Shown: positions 30,582 through 53,452 of the stretch, piece by piece
How the letters are laid out: every line of letters starts with the position of its first letter
Position numbering within the stretch: the stretch's first letter is position 1
NCBI RefSeq assembly: GCF_025742995.1
Contig: NZ_JAOVQM010000001.1
Span: 372,001 to 436,000 of the forward strand
Reading direction: 5' to 3'
DNA from: Paracholeplasma manati
Lineage (GTDB): Bacteria > Bacillota_I > Bacilli_A > Acholeplasmatales > UBA5453
Length of the DNA: 64,000 nucleotides
The notes under the pieces: model-generated
What the model saw: the letters and a program-made list of their open reading frames with translations, nothing else
The model's database searches: none
What the model was told of the DNA's origin: nothing
Position numbers and translations under genes: made by a program

Positions 30582-31496
30582 TTAATATTTCTTTAACTTA
30601 TTGGCTAATAAGGTTTCAAAATCAAATCTAAAATCTTTTTTAATTAAAGCATTAAAACGGTCATAAGAGCCATTTTCAATTTTGACTTTGGTCGCGTGAT
30701 ATAGCTTTTCAATATATTGGTGTGCTTCCTCTGTTTTACCAAGATTTCGGTGCGCTAGACTTAAGAAGTAGTAGGTTAAGTCCAAATTGAAGTAAGATTC
30801 ATTGAAGTCACAGGCTTTTAATACTTCATTACAAAGTTCAATCACCTTGACATCATCCTTATTCATCCCATACATTTTCGCAACCCCTAAGCTGACACTG
30901 TTCATTTGAAAGAAGTCTTTACTGATGAAGGTATAAGCACCCGTTTTGATGATTTGATATAACTTATCCATGATCGGGAATCGTTCCTCATTAGGGATGA
31001 AGTTTAACAATAAGGATAAACCGACCAATTCAACCCCATTCATCACATCGTGTTTTAAGATATCTGGGTAGTGAATGAGCTCTGCACAAACTTTGGCCAA
31101 ATGCGCATTGGGATATTTCTTTAAGTAATAATCCAGTTGTAGTATGTTTAATTTGAAATAGATTTCGTTATTTTGATCGATCATGACTTCTTTACTCAAG
31201 TCTCGCATCAAGGTTTCTGCTTGATCAAAGTCTCTCGCAATGATTGCGTTACTGAATACATCCAAACGGTTCGCTTGATCGATTCTTTTATGTTCGAGTT
31301 CATAAACCATATAAAGTGGTTCAACACTGACACGGTCACACAGTTCAACAAACATCTTAAATGGCATCTCTGAGGTGCCATACAAATATCTTTTATATTG
31401 ACGCAAAGAAACAACCCCATCGATGAAGTTTAACATCGAGAGGTTTTTTTTCGCTCTAAAGTCGTCGAGTAAAACGCACATTTCTCTTGAAATCAT
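30582..31496 (-). CDS. HTH/TPR transcriptional regulator (RRNPP/Rgg-like)
   Basis: 304 residues. A degenerate XRE-type helix-turn-helix (about 8-60: LDDFRAKKNLSMLNFIDGVVSLRQYKRYL) is followed by a helical TPR-like C-terminal region to the end. That is the layout of RRNPP quorum-sensing receptors (Rgg, PlcR, PrgX). Start ATG 31496 is supported by CGGAGGTG six bases upstream; an in-frame start at 31562 would run through that ribosome site. A short exported peptide gene is divergent to it 87 bp away, the classic arrangement for a peptide pheromone and its receptor. Ligand binding is inferred. Confidence 0.78.
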   Translation of the reverse strand: MISREMCVLLDDFRAKKNLSMLNFIDGVVSLRQYKRYLYGTSEMPFKMFVELCDRVSVEPLYMVYELEHKRIDQANRLDVFSNAIIARDFDQAETLMRDLSKEVMIDQNNEIYFKLNILQLDYYLKKYPNAHLAKVCAELIHYPDILKHDVMNGVELVGLSLLLNFIPNEERFPIMDKLYQIIKTGAYTFISKDFFQMNSVSLGVAKMYGMNKDDVKVIELCNEVLKACDFNESYFNLDLTYYFLSLAHRNLGKTEEAHQYIEKLYHATKVKIENGSYDRFNALIKKDFRFDFETLLANKLKKY

Positions 31497-31517
31497 GGGT
31501 AACACCTCCGAAAGTGT

Positions 31518-31525
31518 CACATGTG
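31518..31525. promoter_or_regulatory. CACATGTG palindrome in divergent promoter region
   Basis: An 8-bp palindrome resembling the CACGTG cores at 31560 and 31580. Candidate site for the adjacent HTH/TPR regulator. Confidence 0.4.
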
Positions 31526-31559
31526 CACTCACGCACCCCCTGAGGTAAACGATATGATT

Positions 31560-31585
31560 CACGTGTCGAGGGAGAAAGACACGTG
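31560..31585 (+). promoter_or_regulatory. Inverted repeat containing ribosome site and start codon of the peptide gene
   Basis: CACGTGTC (31560-31567) and GACACGTG (31578-31585) form a perfect 8-bp stem around loop GAGGGAGAAA, which is the ribosome-binding site; the GTG start (31583-31585) is in the right arm. Each arm contains the palindrome CACGTG. A TATGAT -10-like box (31553-31558) precedes it. It can act as an RNA hairpin limiting translation or as a dimeric DNA operator. Confidence 0.6.
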
Positions 31586-31729
31586 AAAAAGAAAATTATA
31601 GCCATGTTATTACTAGGGTTTGTGTTGGTTGGCTCATTGACAGCTTGGTTGAATAAACCAGTCAATGCAGATCATCCTATCGTATTAGAATACGAAGAAC
31701 CAGACCCAGGTAAAAAAATCGGCGGATAA
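31583..31729 (+). CDS. 48-residue exported signal-peptide-bearing peptide, candidate pheromone precursor
   Basis: GTG start with GAGGGAG (31568-31574) at 8 bp. The product has a basic start (MKKKII), a hydrophobic core (AMLLLGFVLVGSLTAWL) and a likely signal-peptidase site after PVNA, leaving DHPIVLEYEEPDPGKKIGG. Size, export signal and position divergent to an RRNPP-type regulator match PapR/Phr-like pro-peptides. The next gene, 31 bp downstream, is probably co-transcribed. The mature form cannot be predicted; a C-terminal or internal 5-10-mer is usual in the class. Confidence 0.68.
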   Translation: MKKKIIAMLLLGFVLVGSLTAWLNKPVNADHPIVLEYEEPDPGKKIGG

Positions 31730-31760
31730 GTTTTATTTCGAGGATGGAGTGAATTTATTT

Positions 31761-32048
31761 ATGGATTGGACGAAATATCAAATCGAATTGACTGGCATGA
31801 CCAAAACAGTCGAAAATATCACCAAGGACCCCTATATTATAGGATACATGGAAATCCTAAAAAATTCAATCCAAGAGCACGAAGTGAATCTTGTAAACCG
31901 TACTTCTAAGAAGATGGTTGATTGGTATCAAAACCACCTAAATGACATATTAAGTGATCAATTTGTTTATGACAAAGATAATCATAGAAAAACCTTCGCG
32001 CTATTACTAGAACTCTTTACTGAGTCTGAAAAATACGCAGCGAACTAA
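31761..32048 (+). CDS. Small protein of unknown function downstream of the peptide gene
   Basis: 95 residues from ATG 31761 (GGAGTGA at 8 bp; GTG 31749 is an alternative giving 99). Soluble, helical, mixed charge, no motif recognised. Its position 31 bp after the peptide gene and before a terminator makes it a likely output gene of the putative signalling locus. Confidence 0.65.
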   Translation: MDWTKYQIELTGMTKTVENITKDPYIIGYMEILKNSIQEHEVNLVNRTSKKMVDWYQNHLNDILSDQFVYDKDNHRKTFALLLELFTESEKYAAN

Positions 32049-32058
32049 TCCCCGTAAG

Positions 32059-32078
32059 TAAGGCCTCCCACGGCCTTA
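32059..32078 (+). other. Short hairpin before terminator
   Basis: TAAGGCC/GGCCTTA with a 6-nt loop, directly upstream of the terminator at 32085; no T-run. Confidence 0.4.
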
Positions 32079-32084
32079 TGAACT

Positions 32085-32116
32085 ATCCCCACACCTCCCC
32101 ACGTGTGGGGATTTTG
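32085..32116 (+). terminator. Terminator of the peptide operon
   Basis: 10-bp stem ATCCCCACAC/GTGTGGGGAT (32085-32094, 32103-32112), then TTTG. A CACGTG sequence happens to fall at 32100-32105. Confidence 0.8.
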
Positions 32117-32198: not shown

Positions 32199-32627
32199 AT
32201 GTCAAGAGAATCTAAGATTTTTTCAGTTAATCGAAAAAGTGAAGTACCGAAGAGAGTCAAAGAGTACGAAGCGTTTGGATGGGAACTACTATCAATTAAT
32301 AACTTAGATGTTTCCATGTCAAGAGAAACTCAAAACAAAGTGTATCATCAATTAGTGAAGTTTGAGTTCGAATATGAAACTTTGCGTGAAGAACAAGAAA
32401 ACTTGTATTGTCCAAAGCCACCGTTCGCATTTAGTTTTATATTATTTTTGTTGTTAGCAGTATTATTTGTTATACCAGGTATTTTGTATTTAATATTATT
32501 CGTATTTTTTAGGGTTTCATACAAAAACGAGTATGAAGAATATGAAAAAAAATATAATTTGTTGGATGAAAAAATTAGAAGAGTATGCGATGATTCTCGA
32601 ACAGTATTCTTCTCTAGAAATGAGTAG
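32199..32627 (+). CDS. Small membrane protein of unknown function
   Basis: 142 residues. A soluble N-terminal segment with coiled-coil tendency (about 1-75) precedes two close hydrophobic helices (about 78-108) and a charged C-terminus. Ribosome site AAGGAGA before ATG. No family recognised. Its last codons lie inside a 46-bp sequence that is duplicated just downstream. Confidence 0.65.
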   Translation: MSRESKIFSVNRKSEVPKRVKEYEAFGWELLSINNLDVSMSRETQNKVYHQLVKFEFEYETLREEQENLYCPKPPFAFSFILFLLLAVLFVIPGILYLILFVFFRVSYKNEYEEYEKKYNLLDEKIRRVCDDSRTVFFSRNE

Positions 32628-32700
32628 TCTCATTTAAAATATAAAGTACAATAACTTCTCTAGAAATGAGTAGTCTCATTTAAAATATAAAGTACAATAA
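32609..32700 (+). repeat. Tandem 46-bp direct duplication
   Basis: Two identical adjacent copies (32609-32654 and 32655-32700). Copy 1 carries the last codons and stop of the upstream gene. Each copy contains the hairpin AAATGAG-TAGT-CTCATTT. The duplication thus doubles a probable 3' hairpin and sits immediately before the next gene, which has no visible ribosome site. Looks recent, since no differences are seen. Confidence 0.9.
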
Positions 32701-32706
32701 TTATAT

Positions 32707-38186: not shown

Positions 38187-38633
38187 ATGAAAAAGAAGCA
38201 TATTCTAATAACCATCACAATTTTATGGACACTATTCATTTTTACACAATCCCTATTACCTGGGGATATTTCATCCGATCAAAGCGGCTTTATTGTCGAT
38301 GTTCTATATCCTTTGGTCAATAAAATGGGTTTAATGATTCAAGTGAATGATTTTAGTTTCCTTATTCGTAAGCTAGCCCATTTTACAGAGTACTTCATAC
38401 TAGGTCTACTGTTATGCATTCTATATATAGAAACCATAAAACCCAATAAACTATGGTTAATCGTCATCATTCATGGTGCAATCACAGCCTCAATCGATGA
38501 AACCATCCAATTATTTACACCCAATCGAAGTGGTGAAGTCAGAGATGTACTCATTGATATATCGGGTGTCATTATCGGGATGATTCTCACACAACTATGG
38601 ATCAAACGTATTCGAAATCATAGATCAAAATAA
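38187..38633 (+). CDS. VanZ-like membrane protein
   Basis: 148 residues, four membrane helices. VanZ-family features: TQSLLPGD after helix 1, RKLAHFTEYFILG, DETIQLFTPNRSGEVRDVLIDISG. The last block is the family signature. Role in cells outside glycopeptide resistance is undefined. Ends in a terminator shared with the convergent gene. Confidence 0.88.
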   Translation: MKKKHILITITILWTLFIFTQSLLPGDISSDQSGFIVDVLYPLVNKMGLMIQVNDFSFLIRKLAHFTEYFILGLLLCILYIETIKPNKLWLIVIIHGAITASIDETIQLFTPNRSGEVRDVLIDISGVIIGMILTQLWIKRIRNHRSK

Positions 38634-38634
38634 A

Positions 38635-38660
38635 AAACCAAAATCGGCTGATTTTGGTTT
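38635..38660. terminator. Bidirectional terminator
   Basis: 11-bp stem AAACCAAAATC/GATTTTGGTTT with GGCT loop; A- and T-runs on the two sides serve both converging genes. Confidence 0.88.
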
Positions 38661-39154
38661 TAAACGCTTTTTAGTTTGATGGTTGGATACTGTTTGAATA
38701 ACGTTATTATGTCTTCAAACGTGCCTTCACTAAATTTCCCTGCGTGAACAAAGTAGGTAGACGTTCCCGTAGATATTAGAAGACCTTCATTAGAATAGAT
38801 TACCCAAGCAATGGCGTATAAAGACTTATTATGAATACTTTGACCATCACTAAATCTATATGTAATCACAAAATCATGTTCGTTTAGGATGAATTCGAGC
38901 TCATTTAAATGATGAAAGAACCTTTTGGGGGCTCGAACATAATATTTGATGATATCATAGAGTCTAAATGTGTAATAAAAGACACCAGTCAATACAATGG
39001 CTAGGTTGATAGCATCATTCACATCGAACAAAAACCATCCGAAAATAACCATTACGAGTAAATAGATTGTTTGTATCAAAATATCTTTTACCCACAAAGG
39101 CTTTAACAATTTCTTCAACACATCGTCATTGGGTAAGTAGTTTACTTTGACCAT
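38660..39154 (-). CDS. Two-helix membrane protein, possibly YcxB-like
   Basis: 164 residues. Two membrane helices (about 25-62) follow a short N-terminus. The C-terminal part is a beta-rich soluble domain (EFILNEHDFVITYRFSDGQSIHNKSLYAIAWVIYSNEGLLIST) that resembles YcxB-type PH-like domains. Family assignment is tentative. GATGGTGA lies upstream of the start. Convergent with the VanZ gene. Confidence 0.6.
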   Translation of the reverse strand: MVKVNYLPNDDVLKKLLKPLWVKDILIQTIYLLVMVIFGWFLFDVNDAINLAIVLTGVFYYTFRLYDIIKYYVRAPKRFFHHLNELEFILNEHDFVITYRFSDGQSIHNKSLYAIAWVIYSNEGLLISTGTSTYFVHAGKFSEGTFEDIITLFKQYPTIKLKSV

Positions 39155-39263
39155 TTATATCACCATCCAACCTAAGTATATAACAATTTGATGGGGAATT
39201 TACGATAATTTTGAAAGTTATGAAATATTTAGTATAATTGATTTAAGTCGGTAGGTGATTTTA

Positions 39264-40442
39264 ATGTTAGTTAAACAACGTAAAGAGATAATCAAACAGT
39301 ATTTACTCAGATTAACCATCACACCACAGGAATTGATGGGCTTTTTGGTGTTATCCGAACAACAACTCAGAGAGTACGCTTCCGGTAAACCGTTCTTTGA
39401 AGATGAACGATACATCGATTTTATCGAGTTCATTGGTATTGATAAATACTACATTGGCTATACTGAACCGAAAACTGAAACAGCGATTGGTTCACCGCTT
39501 TCCTTATTTTTTCCGAATAGAGGCGTACCTAATCAACCCATGAGGGCTTTACGTCATTTATTATCCAATCTTTTTACAAGAACGAGTAAAGAATATCGAC
39601 GTGAGTTTGCTCCTAAACATTTGTTTGAGAAGAACTTTGGCTATACCGAGCCTTTTATCTATAAACAAGTATTGATCAGTTTGTTATTGGTTTTCGGATT
39701 GAGTTATCTGATGGCAGACCTAACCGTTGTACAAAATGTTGCGTTAGGGTTATCTATACCGTTGACATTACTTATATTGGTCTATGAATTTGATAAACAC
39801 GATCAATTGAATTTAAGGGACGTATTGGTTTTATTTGTGGTAGGTGGGATTGTATCAATGGGTATTACCTATTGGATTAGAATGTTCACTGGTTATCCAG
39901 ATGGGTTAGTAGGCGATTTAATGACGGGATTTGTAGAAGAAACCGCTAAACTCATCACTGCCATTGTCTTCATCCGAAAAATCAAGTTTAGAAATGTTTA
40001 CACAGCCTTTGTTTTAGCTTTCGCCATCGGCGCTGGGTTTGACGCATTCGAAACCATGGAGTATGGCATCAACGCCATTTTCTCTACGGGGGACTACTTC
40101 CAAGGGACCATTACACTCGCCTTTAGAAGTGTATTATCCTTTGGGATTGGACACCATTACTGGACTGCCATTATTTTCGCGACCCTCGCAGGGTTATCTA
40201 AGTCATACAAAGTCGACTTTCACAAACTATACCATCCGACCTTCGTCTTGGTTTATATATTCATCATTTTATTTCACGCGATGTTCAACCATATGCCTTT
40301 ATGGATTGAAATATTGATGGCTATATTTGGATTGATTGTATTCCCATATATGGGGTATCAATTCTATCTAAAACGATACACGGAACTGCCAATTGAGACG
40401 GTTCAAACCGAACCAGACGTTCCAACCTATCTTCCGAATTAA
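39264..40442 (+). CDS. PrsW-family intramembrane metalloprotease
   Basis: 392 residues. After a soluble N-terminal domain (about 1-135) come seven to eight membrane helices with the PrsW motifs: VEETAKL (Glu 225, Glu 226), FDAFETMEY (Asp 260, Glu 263), GIGHHYWT and FHAMFNH. The His and Glu residues form the putative zinc site. In Bacillus PrsW starts RsiW cleavage. No sigma or anti-sigma pair is nearby, so the substrate is unknown. ATG 39264 has AGGTGA five bases upstream. Confidence 0.87.
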   Translation: MLVKQRKEIIKQYLLRLTITPQELMGFLVLSEQQLREYASGKPFFEDERYIDFIEFIGIDKYYIGYTEPKTETAIGSPLSLFFPNRGVPNQPMRALRHLLSNLFTRTSKEYRREFAPKHLFEKNFGYTEPFIYKQVLISLLLVFGLSYLMADLTVVQNVALGLSIPLTLLILVYEFDKHDQLNLRDVLVLFVVGGIVSMGITYWIRMFTGYPDGLVGDLMTGFVEETAKLITAIVFIRKIKFRNVYTAFVLAFAIGAGFDAFETMEYGINAIFSTGDYFQGTITLAFRSVLSFGIGHHYWTAIIFATLAGLSKSYKVDFHKLYHPTFVLVYIFIILFHAMFNHMPLWIEILMAIFGLIVFPYMGYQFYLKRYTELPIETVQTEPDVPTYLPN

Positions 40443-50206: not shown

Positions 50207-53200
50207 CTATAACCAGTACCAGCCAACATAGTAGTCGCCTACTTTTATGACCACATAAGCATCCAACTGAAGATTGATGAACTGCGTACCATAGACATAC
50301 GCTGTAACCCCAGTCGGTAGTTTGGATTCAGCCCAAATCTCATCCCAGGTATTAAATGTACCATAGGTAGAGGCGATGTATGGGATGGCGTTGATTTCAT
50401 CTAAAGTCAATGGTGTTTCAGACGTGTAATGTAATAAATACTCATAATTATGATAAGCTATTGCCTCTTTGACTGTTTTCGCTAATGTGAGGATGTCATA
50501 GAGTTCGTATCCATCATTATTTTTTTTCAAAAGAAATAACAATTCTTGGCCGGTTGTAGTGATAACGACATAACTCTCGATGGTATCGACATGGAGGTTA
50601 GCAGCGAGTGTATTCAAATCCCCAACCATTAGAGCTGCGATACCCAACGAATCGGAAGCGATTGAAGCGATACTATCTTCGTATTGGCTGAGTTTCACTT
50701 GAATGAGGCTTTCTGGGGTATCCCAAGTCTTTTGTTCCATCCCATCTTTCACATAAACTTTACCATTCAGCGCAGAAACTAGGGCGTTATAACTCCAAAG
50801 CTCATAAACCATTTGACCTGAAGCGTTACGGTAAGCTATAGGGATATTGGCAGAGGTTGTATCAATACCAAAATCCATCGTGAAATTCGAACGATTATCA
50901 TCGGTATACGATGACAAAATGCCTTGATTAATCGGTACTGAGCCTGAAATTCCGGCGATACCTAAATCGGTATTCGCTTTTTGTAAGAAATCATAATAGT
51001 TGCTTGGGAAAGCAACATCCACTAAATTGATTTCGATTTTCACATAGTTGTTATGATCAATCAAGCGTTGCTCATATTGAGACTTTAGTTGTTGTGCCAT
51101 GGTTTGAAAGGCCTGGTTGCCACTGGATGAATAGGTCAAATCCAAAGCAATCACAGTATAATTTGAAGCATTACCACGTTCATAATACCCCTCAGTGATG
51201 GCTCGATTCACCGCTTGTTCAAAGAGAGATACGGCTTTGTCTGGAACGAAACCATAGTTATCCTGTCCATACTTAATTAAAATGTCTGCCCCTGCAGGAA
51301 GTGTTCTGATTGTTACACCATGAGGCACATCGATGAAGAAATTAGTTCTTAGTAAAGTATAAACAGGCAGATAAATTTTCGCTTGATTCACTGCGGCTTC
51401 ATAACGATCAAACCCATAATACAAGGCTTGTCTCATCTCTTTATACATCAAAATAGGTTCAGGAACAAAGTTTGGATTAATTGTAACATCCGGGTGTGAT
51501 TCGATGTAGGCATCTCGTCGTTCTTCTGTACCAAACCCATTAATTACCAATCGATAAGTTGTTGCGGATGGTATGGTACTTACTCGACTGTCTAAAGCAT
51601 ATTCGAGGGTACGGTTTGTTGGTAAGTTAGCCATATCGAGTTTACCATCTAAAAATGCTTGGAAAATAAGGTCGGTACCAGTCATAAACTGATATTGTAA
51701 ACCTGTAAAGTGATACATGTCTTTTAGTGGGTGATTCGAATTCTTTTTAAAAGTAAGTTGTTCACCCAAGGTCCAACTATCTAAATAGTAAATACCAGAA
51801 GAAGGTGTCGACTCAGGTGAGGTTGCGTACCCATTAGGGGTGAGTTTTTCTAAAAGTTGTTGGTTTAAAGGCGAGAGTAATGGTGAGGAAAACTGATACT
51901 TAACATCAAATGCTGATTTATCGGTTGTATACTCAATTTCTAAGGTGTTTGAACTACCCGAAGCCAATCTTAAACCAACTTGATTGATACCAATAGTACC
52001 TGCTAAAAATTCTGAAGCCCCTTTGACTTGGTTACTAACAAAATCGTTACCCCCTGTACGTGCTCTAAACCATTGTTGTTGCAAAGCGTATCGATAGGTC
52101 CATAAGAAATCCTCTGCATTTAGCACTTCATGACCACTTGGCAGACCCGCTAGGTTTGTATTTGGATGATAAGTCCAAACCAAATTATCTTTAACAGGAA
52201 TTCGCCAAACTTTAGCGTATGTCTGTCCATTAATGACGTTTGGATTGACAGGGATTGGCTCAGATTCAGCCAAAGAAGGTTGAAGTTTAAACCCAGTCTT
52301 GGTGTCATCGAAGAAGTGATCATACAATGACCCACTGAATTGACTGATTATTGCTTCATCCGTATAATTATCACTTATCCAACTATTTAATGTGTATGGG
52401 TCTGTACTGTAAGCAGATCTAAATGTGAATTCATTTGCGTTTCCATAAGTGTTGCCTGACATCATAACTTGTGAATCATCGGTATTTAATTTAGAAAACG
52501 GTACACCAAAACCTAAGACAGCATTATGGGTTGGGCTGAATAATTCAACCCTATTGGAAAACATCATGCGTGTCGAGCCTGTAAATAGAGGTACGCCTGC
52601 GTAGACATTATCTAGTAGATAGTTTTCTGCGGCTGCATATATCTTCGCAATCTCGGTATAGTTTAACTCTGTAAAGTCATACAAACCATTGGCTTCTTGA
52701 AAAAACTCAAGCGGTACATCATTGGTCACATCAGGACCAATAACATCGACTTTGCCAACGATAAAAAGTTGAAGGTAAGCCACATCCAATAAACTGATCT
52801 GTCCATCACGATTGATGTCAGCCAGTTCAATCAAATCATCTTTTAATAATGCTTTTCCTGCCAAATGCAGTTGAATCATCAAAGCGTCTTGTATGGTTAC
52901 TTGACCATCCATATTTAGGTCACCGAACTCACCGACATGAACTGCCATGAAGACATAAGATACGTCTGGAATCGCAGTGAATTGACTACTAGGTCCCATC
53001 ATAATAATCTCATTGTTAAAGGTTTGATCTAAAGAGATGACATCGTATTGTCCGTATGGAATGTATGACTTAACCTTGAAGGACAACTCAAATAAAGTGT
53101 TGAAGCCTGTGATGGTTTGTTCGGTTTGACTGAACGCAACAGAAATGATGCCCGGGTTTTCAATGTTATAGACTAAACCTGGAAATTGACGCTGATCATA

Positions 53201-53452
53201 ATTGAGACTGATTAATTCAAAAAGATTGGCATCGTAAAGCAGTCGCATCTGATAGCCTGCAACCGGATATGGTGTATCTAGAGTAACATTAATCTTAAAG
53301 GTGAGCCCATGGGATGTGTGGACATCCTCAGTGGATGAAACCACTGTTACAGCGGTATCCAAGGCTACCAATGTCGTGTAGCTAAAGACAAAAAAGCTCC
53401 AAAGACTGATTAAAGATACGATAAAAAACCGACGAATATATCGACGAATCAT
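50207..53452 (-). CDS. Secreted cohesin-dockerin-SBP5 fusion protein
   Basis: 1081 residues. Signal peptide (about 1-32). Residues about 33-170 look like a cohesin-type beta sandwich (VAGYQMRLLYDANLFELISL, PGIISVAFSQ, LFELSFKV). Residues 177-234 are a type-I dockerin with two 12-residue calcium loops, 178-189 (DLNMDGQVTIQD) and 212-223 (DINRDGQISLLD). From about 290 an oligopeptide-binding family-5 domain follows (VWRIPVKDNLVWTYHPN; LNAEDFLWTYRYAL; GIYYLDSWTLGEQLTFKKN). No oligopeptide permease genes adjoin. GGAGGTGG precedes the start. A surface-assembled peptide or glycan receptor is inferred. Confidence 0.8.
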   Translation of the reverse strand: MIRRYIRRFFIVSLISLWSFFVFSYTTLVALDTAVTVVSSTEDVHTSHGLTFKINVTLDTPYPVAGYQMRLLYDANLFELISLNYDQRQFPGLVYNIENPGIISVAFSQTEQTITGFNTLFELSFKVKSYIPYGQYDVISLDQTFNNEIIMMGPSSQFTAIPDVSYVFMAVHVGEFGDLNMDGQVTIQDALMIQLHLAGKALLKDDLIELADINRDGQISLLDVAYLQLFIVGKVDVIGPDVTNDVPLEFFQEANGLYDFTELNYTEIAKIYAAAENYLLDNVYAGVPLFTGSTRMMFSNRVELFSPTHNAVLGFGVPFSKLNTDDSQVMMSGNTYGNANEFTFRSAYSTDPYTLNSWISDNYTDEAIISQFSGSLYDHFFDDTKTGFKLQPSLAESEPIPVNPNVINGQTYAKVWRIPVKDNLVWTYHPNTNLAGLPSGHEVLNAEDFLWTYRYALQQQWFRARTGGNDFVSNQVKGASEFLAGTIGINQVGLRLASGSSNTLEIEYTTDKSAFDVKYQFSSPLLSPLNQQLLEKLTPNGYATSPESTPSSGIYYLDSWTLGEQLTFKKNSNHPLKDMYHFTGLQYQFMTGTDLIFQAFLDGKLDMANLPTNRTLEYALDSRVSTIPSATTYRLVINGFGTEERRDAYIESHPDVTINPNFVPEPILMYKEMRQALYYGFDRYEAAVNQAKIYLPVYTLLRTNFFIDVPHGVTIRTLPAGADILIKYGQDNYGFVPDKAVSLFEQAVNRAITEGYYERGNASNYTVIALDLTYSSSGNQAFQTMAQQLKSQYEQRLIDHNNYVKIEINLVDVAFPSNYYDFLQKANTDLGIAGISGSVPINQGILSSYTDDNRSNFTMDFGIDTTSANIPIAYRNASGQMVYELWSYNALVSALNGKVYVKDGMEQKTWDTPESLIQVKLSQYEDSIASIASDSLGIAALMVGDLNTLAANLHVDTIESYVVITTTGQELLFLLKKNNDGYELYDILTLAKTVKEAIAYHNYEYLLHYTSETPLTLDEINAIPYIASTYGTFNTWDEIWAESKLPTGVTAYVYGTQFINLQLDAYVVIKVGDYYVGWYWL

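Follow-up and report, generated by a model that had tools for sequence, protein, structure and literature searches.

Introduction

PlcR-PapR of the Bacillus cereus group is the known system closest to the locus studied here by both profile and fold. Its receptor likewise combines an HTH with TPR repeats in a protein of similar length and a small propeptide gene lies beside it, the two genes being co-directional. ComR-ComS and Rgg-SHP of the streptococci share the receptor fold and also have the peptide gene next to the receptor, where a divergent layout is known for Rgg-SHP. RRNPP signalling is seen as a property of Bacillota with a cell wall; the hosts considered here belong to Mycoplasmatota in NCBI taxonomy, where Paracholeplasma is placed in the Mollicutes. 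Propeptides of the RRNPPA group with several identical or variant pheromone copies are known (PMC9765709, PMC11343458), with up to 6 identical copies per propeptide being reported (PMC9765709), and the largest RRNPP survey scanned 7,974 complete Firmicutes genomes (PMC10075063). The original prediction for this locus held that peptide signalling has hardly been described in mollicute-like lineages. In agreement with this, the literature that we searched contains no report of RRNPP systems in Mollicutes or these lineages, although preprints and many subscription papers lie outside it and may hold such a report.

The locus is found in the window, which is the whole stretch of 64,000 nucleotides of Paracholeplasma manati DNA that was analysed. 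Its receptor is just 10-13% identical to that of PlcR-PapR and, unlike the latter, the window system has a divergent layout, an acidic putative signal that is often repeated in the family and a third gene that resembles the N-terminal domain (Ntd) of SpbK. It also differs from the wide regulon of PlcR in having a single local operator-like site, and its hosts are of the Mollicutes type. The signals of ComR-ComS and Rgg-SHP are hydrophobic (SHP/XIP) whereas acidic, proline-bearing units are found here in different hosts. In comparison with the known repeat-pheromone propeptides, up to 10 identical units are present (L079), the receptor is HTH-bearing and PlcR-like and the unit sequence is unrelated. 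The 95-aa product of the third gene corresponds to the N-terminal four-helix portal-binding domain of SpbK, an anti-phage TIR NADase of ICEBs1 in Bacillus subtilis, but it has no TIR, stands alone and is encoded in the operon of a propeptide whose receptor is of the HTH type.

Organization of the locus

The receptor gene is located on the minus strand (30582-31496) and encodes 304 residues, with the HTH at about residues 1-66 followed by a TPR-like C-terminal domain. Its start was read as the ATG at 31496, with GGAGGTG upstream; a longer frame from a GTG at 31562 was rejected, since all members of the family align from this ATG onwards. The propeptide gene (31583-31729) lies divergently on the plus strand and consists of 48 codons with a GTG start and a Shine-Dalgarno (SD) sequence, GAGGGAG, at 31568-31574. 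The leader MKKKIIAMLLLGFVLVGSLTAWLNKPVNA is followed by the candidate mature peptide DHPIVLEYEEPDPGKKIGG, the boundary being a signal-peptidase-like site V-N-A/D (the slash marks the cut). The same operon continues on the plus strand with the gene for the 95-aa protein (31761-32048) and ends at an intrinsic terminator-like hairpin with a T-run (32085-32112), which was found by hairpin scan and folding.

Between the two divergent genes, a motif search located an operator-like imperfect dyad, AGTGTCACATGTGCACTC, at 31513-31530. A probable -10 box of the peptide operon, TATGAT, was read directly from the plus strand at 31553-31558 and a perfect inverted repeat with 10-bp arms, TTCACGTGTC-N10-GACACGTGAA, occupies 31558-31587, its loop containing the SD and its 3' arm the GTG start. 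The original prediction had described an HTH plus TPR-like regulator on the minus strand, a divergent 48-codon leader-peptide gene and, downstream, a 95-residue protein and a terminator. All of these are present, where the regulator fold is predicted with high confidence and the peptide frame is kept in Paracholeplasma vituli. What that description understated is the dyad, which turned out to be family-wide. Outside the locus, a sequence of about 47 bp (acttctctagaaatgagtagtctcatttaaaatataaagtacaataa) is directly repeated at 32612-32703 of the window, at the end of a 142-aa ORF and beyond.

Receptor fold and family

The receptor model is all-helical (pLDDT 91.4, pTM 0.82) and its top match is the PlcR-PapR structure 3u3w, with a Foldseek E-value of 1.6e-6 and a VIA Z of 18.5. 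VIA-align also gave Z values of 16.9 for ComR with ComS, 15.1 for Rgg3, 14.6 for Rap, 12.7 for PrgX and 12.3 for AimR, so that nearly all top structural matches from Foldseek and VIA-align are RRNPP receptors. The match takes in the HTH of PlcR and ComR. Over the full length the rmsd to the PDB structures is 8-10 A, probably because the HTH and TPR domains are set at different angles, and the TPR part alone superposes on ComR and PlcR at 3.0-3.2 A. At 304 residues with a TPR fold in the model, the protein lies within the 250-500 residues and the fold that define RRNPP(A) receptors, and the predicted HTH and TPR architecture with PapR-bound PlcR as best match agrees with the TPR ligand groove on which the original prediction depended. 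A common fold by itself proves no function.

Sequence comparison points in the same direction. A 25-member receptor alignment used as a profile against the PDB matched PlcR (2qfc) at E 4.3e-5 over positions 8-256 and Rgg-type receptors at about 1e-4. The window receptor alone gave no Pfam match above the cut-off, and HTH_3 (PF01381) was recognised in 18 of the 25 relatives with weak E-values (best 5e-5). Pfam and NCBIfam gave no name to the receptor or to the 95-aa protein and no RRNPP subfamily model claims the receptor; it is thus best described as apparently related to PlcR and Rgg by profile, with no membership of a named RRNPP subfamily being claimed.

More than 100 receptors make up the family, their genomes being those of Acholeplasma, Paracholeplasma, Haloplasmataceae and Izemoplasma-like bacteria. 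At E <= 1e-3, 89 of 395 genomes of the class gave a match, where the weak matches are probably generic HTH proteins. Strong members occur in A. laidlawii, A. granularum, A. oculi, A. equifetale, Peloplasma, Paracholeplasma, Candidatus Izimaplasma, Tenericutes MO-XQ and one Haloplasmataceae genome, and a 99% identical receptor is present in Acholeplasmataceae bacterium UBA6235. In the class-wide search the family was absent from the small genomes of genus g20 of the same order, and a tblastn search of the receptor against 50,697 phage records gave no match. The window genome holds a second family receptor (L033/L108, contig 6 at about 38446-39360) with its own divergent leader peptide ending in LGGAPINGVVGG; by eye, an apparent signal peptidase II gene is located near it.

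The propeptide and its repeated unit

The original prediction expected the small peptide to co-occur with homologues of the regulator. Of the 102 distinct receptors for which 400 bp or more of upstream sequence was available, 82 have a divergent small ORF with an SD and a hydrophobic leader, compared with 5 of 195 other genes in the same DNA that were examined by the same rule. The adjacent small propeptide gene with an export leader that characterizes RRNPP(A) systems is therefore present in most of the family, with leaders being scored here by hydrophobicity and not by SignalP. In the 82 loci the ORF starts 80-134 bp from the receptor (median 93.5 bp), and at least three of these ORFs (L159, L100 and L101) appear spurious by eye. 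Six of the 20 receptors with no peptide (L078, L082, L086, L091, L092 and L094) are second receptors that flank one peptide operon at its other end, leaving 14 of the 102 with no detected peptide and no such tandem arrangement.

The leaders are variable and are followed by a short acidic unit, usually with a proline, such as LDFDDPDLPELVN, LDFENSGQPEW and GFEELEDPEYVRI; the unit of the window propeptide is VLEYEEPDPGKKIGG. Of the 82 propeptides, 25 carry 2-10 copies of the unit that are the same in protein sequence, and the DNA of most repeats differs at 1-9 positions, all of them synonymous, as follows from a test that required identical protein. Since these repeats are identical in protein and synonymously varied in DNA, they provide strong evidence that the acidic unit itself is translated and under selection. 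A clear cleavage site of the A-x-A type or V-x-A/D-like was observed in 26 of the 82 propeptides, the window peptide among them, whereas the P. vituli peptide has no clear A-x-A-type site; export and processing may therefore differ between members. G005, a further genome from this genus, has three leader-peptide genes for an identical 52-aa product arranged in tandem with 366-bp spacing (L021, 2887-3777) near two family receptors, so that the repetition there is at the level of the gene and not of the unit.

In P. vituli (L010/L114) the peptide frame also has 48 codons with no indel. Comparison with the window peptide shows 12 synonymous and 26 non-synonymous codon changes, with 26 of the 48 residues changed and a C-terminal core IVLE[YF][ED]E.DP kept. 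The two receptors are 76% identical in the HTH and 46% in the TPR part, the dyad is unchanged and the 95-aa proteins differ with a dN of 0.11 and a dS of 1.0. In pheromone pairs, the DNA-reading end is conserved while the ligand-reading end and the ligand diverge.

The intergenic region

A dyad with the consensus TAGGACATATNYGCCCTG was found in nearly all of 68 non-redundant intergenic regions, located 15-44 bp from the receptor start, with a motif log-likelihood of 570 compared with 56-65 for shuffled sets. Within 2 mismatches, GTGTCACATGTGCACTC has a single occurrence in each of two genomes, that of the window and that of P. vituli. Six Acholeplasma genomes each have one strong site for the genus form of the dyad, beside the receptor, and their remaining 2-mismatch sites are no commoner than the control. 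As a close copy is found once per genome, control is probably local and not genome-wide. A genome-wide regulon was considered, and the single close site (up to 2 mismatches) in the window genome and in P. vituli argues against it.

The peptide promoter appears to be weak. By eye, the hexamer 17 nt upstream of TATGAT, CACGCA (31530-31535), is a poor -35 which abuts the dyad, and a scan for consensus promoters listed none at 31553-31558. Because the dyad abuts the place of the missing -35, the arrangement suggests a promoter that depends on an activator, and we infer activation rather than repression solely from this layout.

The inverted repeat at 31558-31587 has a shorter counterpart in P. vituli (CATGTC-N9-GACATG) and no further site within 2 mismatches in the genome; a 70-nt stretch that includes it folds at -16.6 kcal/mol. 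As an operator for the receptor this palindrome is not favoured, since relatives match it poorly and the site conserved across the family is the dyad. Other inverted repeats occur ahead of the peptide SD, namely those with 16-20 bp arms (CTAATATATAAATATA...) directly before it in L073, L077, L079, L080 and L081, and others of 8-11 bp (CCTAATTG...CAATTAGG) in Acholeplasmataceae relatives. It is possible that these form stems at the 5' end of the mRNA.

The third gene

The 95-aa protein belongs to a 28-member family in the collected loci which is mostly located directly behind the propeptide and is present in many lineages. A profile of the 28 members matched SpbK (9phb) at E 2.5e-15 over construct residues 28-113, and the PADLOC spbK model matched the window protein alone at E 2.1e-13 and all 28 members of the family. 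The similarity covers the N-terminal four-helix domain of SpbK (residues 1-94) and the protein model is a four-helix bundle (pLDDT 96), whereas the C-terminal TIR NADase domain is absent from the 95 residues. On sequence grounds, the protein is not an SpbK, yet it has its sensing domain. Foldseek gave just weak helical-bundle matches in the PDB for this model, as expected because the N-terminal domain shows no density in the released map of the SpbK filament (PMC12847820). The original prediction correctly placed a 95-residue protein here and understated its role, as it is a recurrent third component related to the SpbK N-terminal domain.

In SpbK this domain contacts the phage portal YonE at its clip domain through F69 and F71 (PMC12847820). 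The window protein has F68 and Y70 at the aligned positions, the first of which is aromatic in 27 of the 28 members; as a sign of portal binding the aligned aromatics are only suggestive and they may have a structural role. In ICEBs1, spbK is contiguous with the peptide-receptor pair rapI-phrI (PMC8880864), a parallel that is noteworthy but no proof of relation.

Across 390 genomes of the class, 43 SpbK-Ntd-like matches were found in 35 genomes, with 42 of them being open frames of 58-130 aa. Counted by hand from their positions, 30 have a family receptor as neighbour and 3 show no such linkage; the contig breaks off on the receptor side of another 9, and the remaining one is a true TIR fusion resembling SpbK. 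The latter (L222 3009-4136, in the class member G225) consists of an N-terminal extension, SpbK-Ntd and TIR_2 (E 8.6e-7) and sits in an apparent type I restriction-modification island. With TIR_2 as the sole TIR model used, no TIR protein was found in the window genome, and the 95-aa protein had no match in plasmids. The SpbK-Ntd-like gene is missing from the Acholeplasma loci, where receptor and peptide persist. A NUDIX hydrolase gene takes its place behind the peptide in Acholeplasma, and in other Acholeplasmataceae the gene in this position encodes a 147-aa membrane protein with no Pfam name (both observed among L016, L017, L036, L022, L051 and L052).

Proposed circuit and alternative explanations

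We consider it likely that the locus is an autoinducing peptide-pheromone circuit of the RRNPP type, nearest to PlcR-PapR, with the SpbK-Ntd-like protein as its local output. The propeptide would be exported via Sec, after which proteases would cut it down to an acidic signal around VLEYEEPDPGKK; Opp would return this signal to the cell, where the TPR groove of the receptor would bind it. On the dyad, the peptide-bound receptor would then control the weak peptide promoter, most likely by switching it on. This would create positive feedback and increase the SpbK-Ntd-like protein, and the receptor would also restrain its own gene. An OppA-OppB-OppC-OppD run, which the proposed import step needs, is present on contig 5 of the window genome and may serve this peptide. 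Within the window, a 1081-aa protein (50207-53452, minus strand) has an OppA-type (SBP_bac_5) domain with no permease genes beside it, and the region before this domain reads by eye as cohesin/dockerin-like. The RRNPP reading of the original prediction appears to be largely right: the fold, the 82/102 linkage and the synonymous repeats support it, and peptide binding and signalling are what we infer from them.

The locus might instead be a phage-defence or counter-defence module in which the SpbK-Ntd-like protein binds portals, so that assembly is blocked or the portals are protected from TIR proteins like SpbK, and where receptor and peptide set only its level. This would agree with the SpbK homology, the aligned aromatic pair, the rapI-phrI neighbourhood of spbK and the full SpbK-Ntd and TIR fusion in a restriction-modification island of the same class, but the window genome has no TIR_2 protein, Acholeplasma loci dispense with the third gene while keeping receptor and peptide, the aromatics may be structural and the phage records and plasmids gave no mobile-element or phage link. 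We regard this module as unlikely. A pheromone-controlled phage sensor is likewise a doubtful proposal. Here, cell-to-cell peptides would adjust a stand-alone portal-binding protein of the SpbK type, with population density setting phage readiness or blunting TIR-type suicide.

There is little chance that the product is an antimicrobial or host-directed peptide with the regulator as its autoregulator and the 95-aa protein as an immunity or accessory factor. A leader peptide with an adjacent small gene and a regulator is also the layout of a bacteriocin and repeat-bearing precursors could yield many product copies; however, most bacteriocins differ from the mature units, which are short and acidic, and the regulator resembles PlcR and ComR and has a peptide-binding fold. 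The locus has no linked exporter or modification enzyme, and the SpbK-Ntd-like protein is predicted to be soluble. It is very improbable that an ordinary HTH-TPR regulator with an unknown small-molecule or protein ligand lies next to a short ORF for a small membrane protein and not a signal. Many leaders with no obvious cleavage site and a few receptors with no ORF would fit such an anchor, but tandem identical units behind a leader, with synonymous DNA change only, are ill-suited to it and the constant divergent layout would make little sense. Finally, the ORF is short with a GTG start, as a spurious 48-codon frame beside a lone regulator would be, but family-wide conservation and coding-type change leave this a negligible probability; chance is refuted by the linkage, the synonymous repeats and the comparison with P. 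vituli.

Implications

The preferred reading, a pheromone circuit of the RRNPP type, implies that these wall-less bacteria very probably use peptides for mutual signalling. The family is large and testable, and includes the cultured Acholeplasma laidlawii and Paracholeplasma vituli. Most of its members have their own predicted signal, many of these being encoded as repeats, together with a predicted operator, and the recurrent third gene links the circuit to an anti-phage sensor domain. If true, a pheromone-tuned phage sensor would connect quorum sensing with sensing of the SpbK type in a manner distinct from ICEBs1. Communication among mollicutes and the stand-alone role of the SpbK N-terminal domain thereby become directly testable questions.
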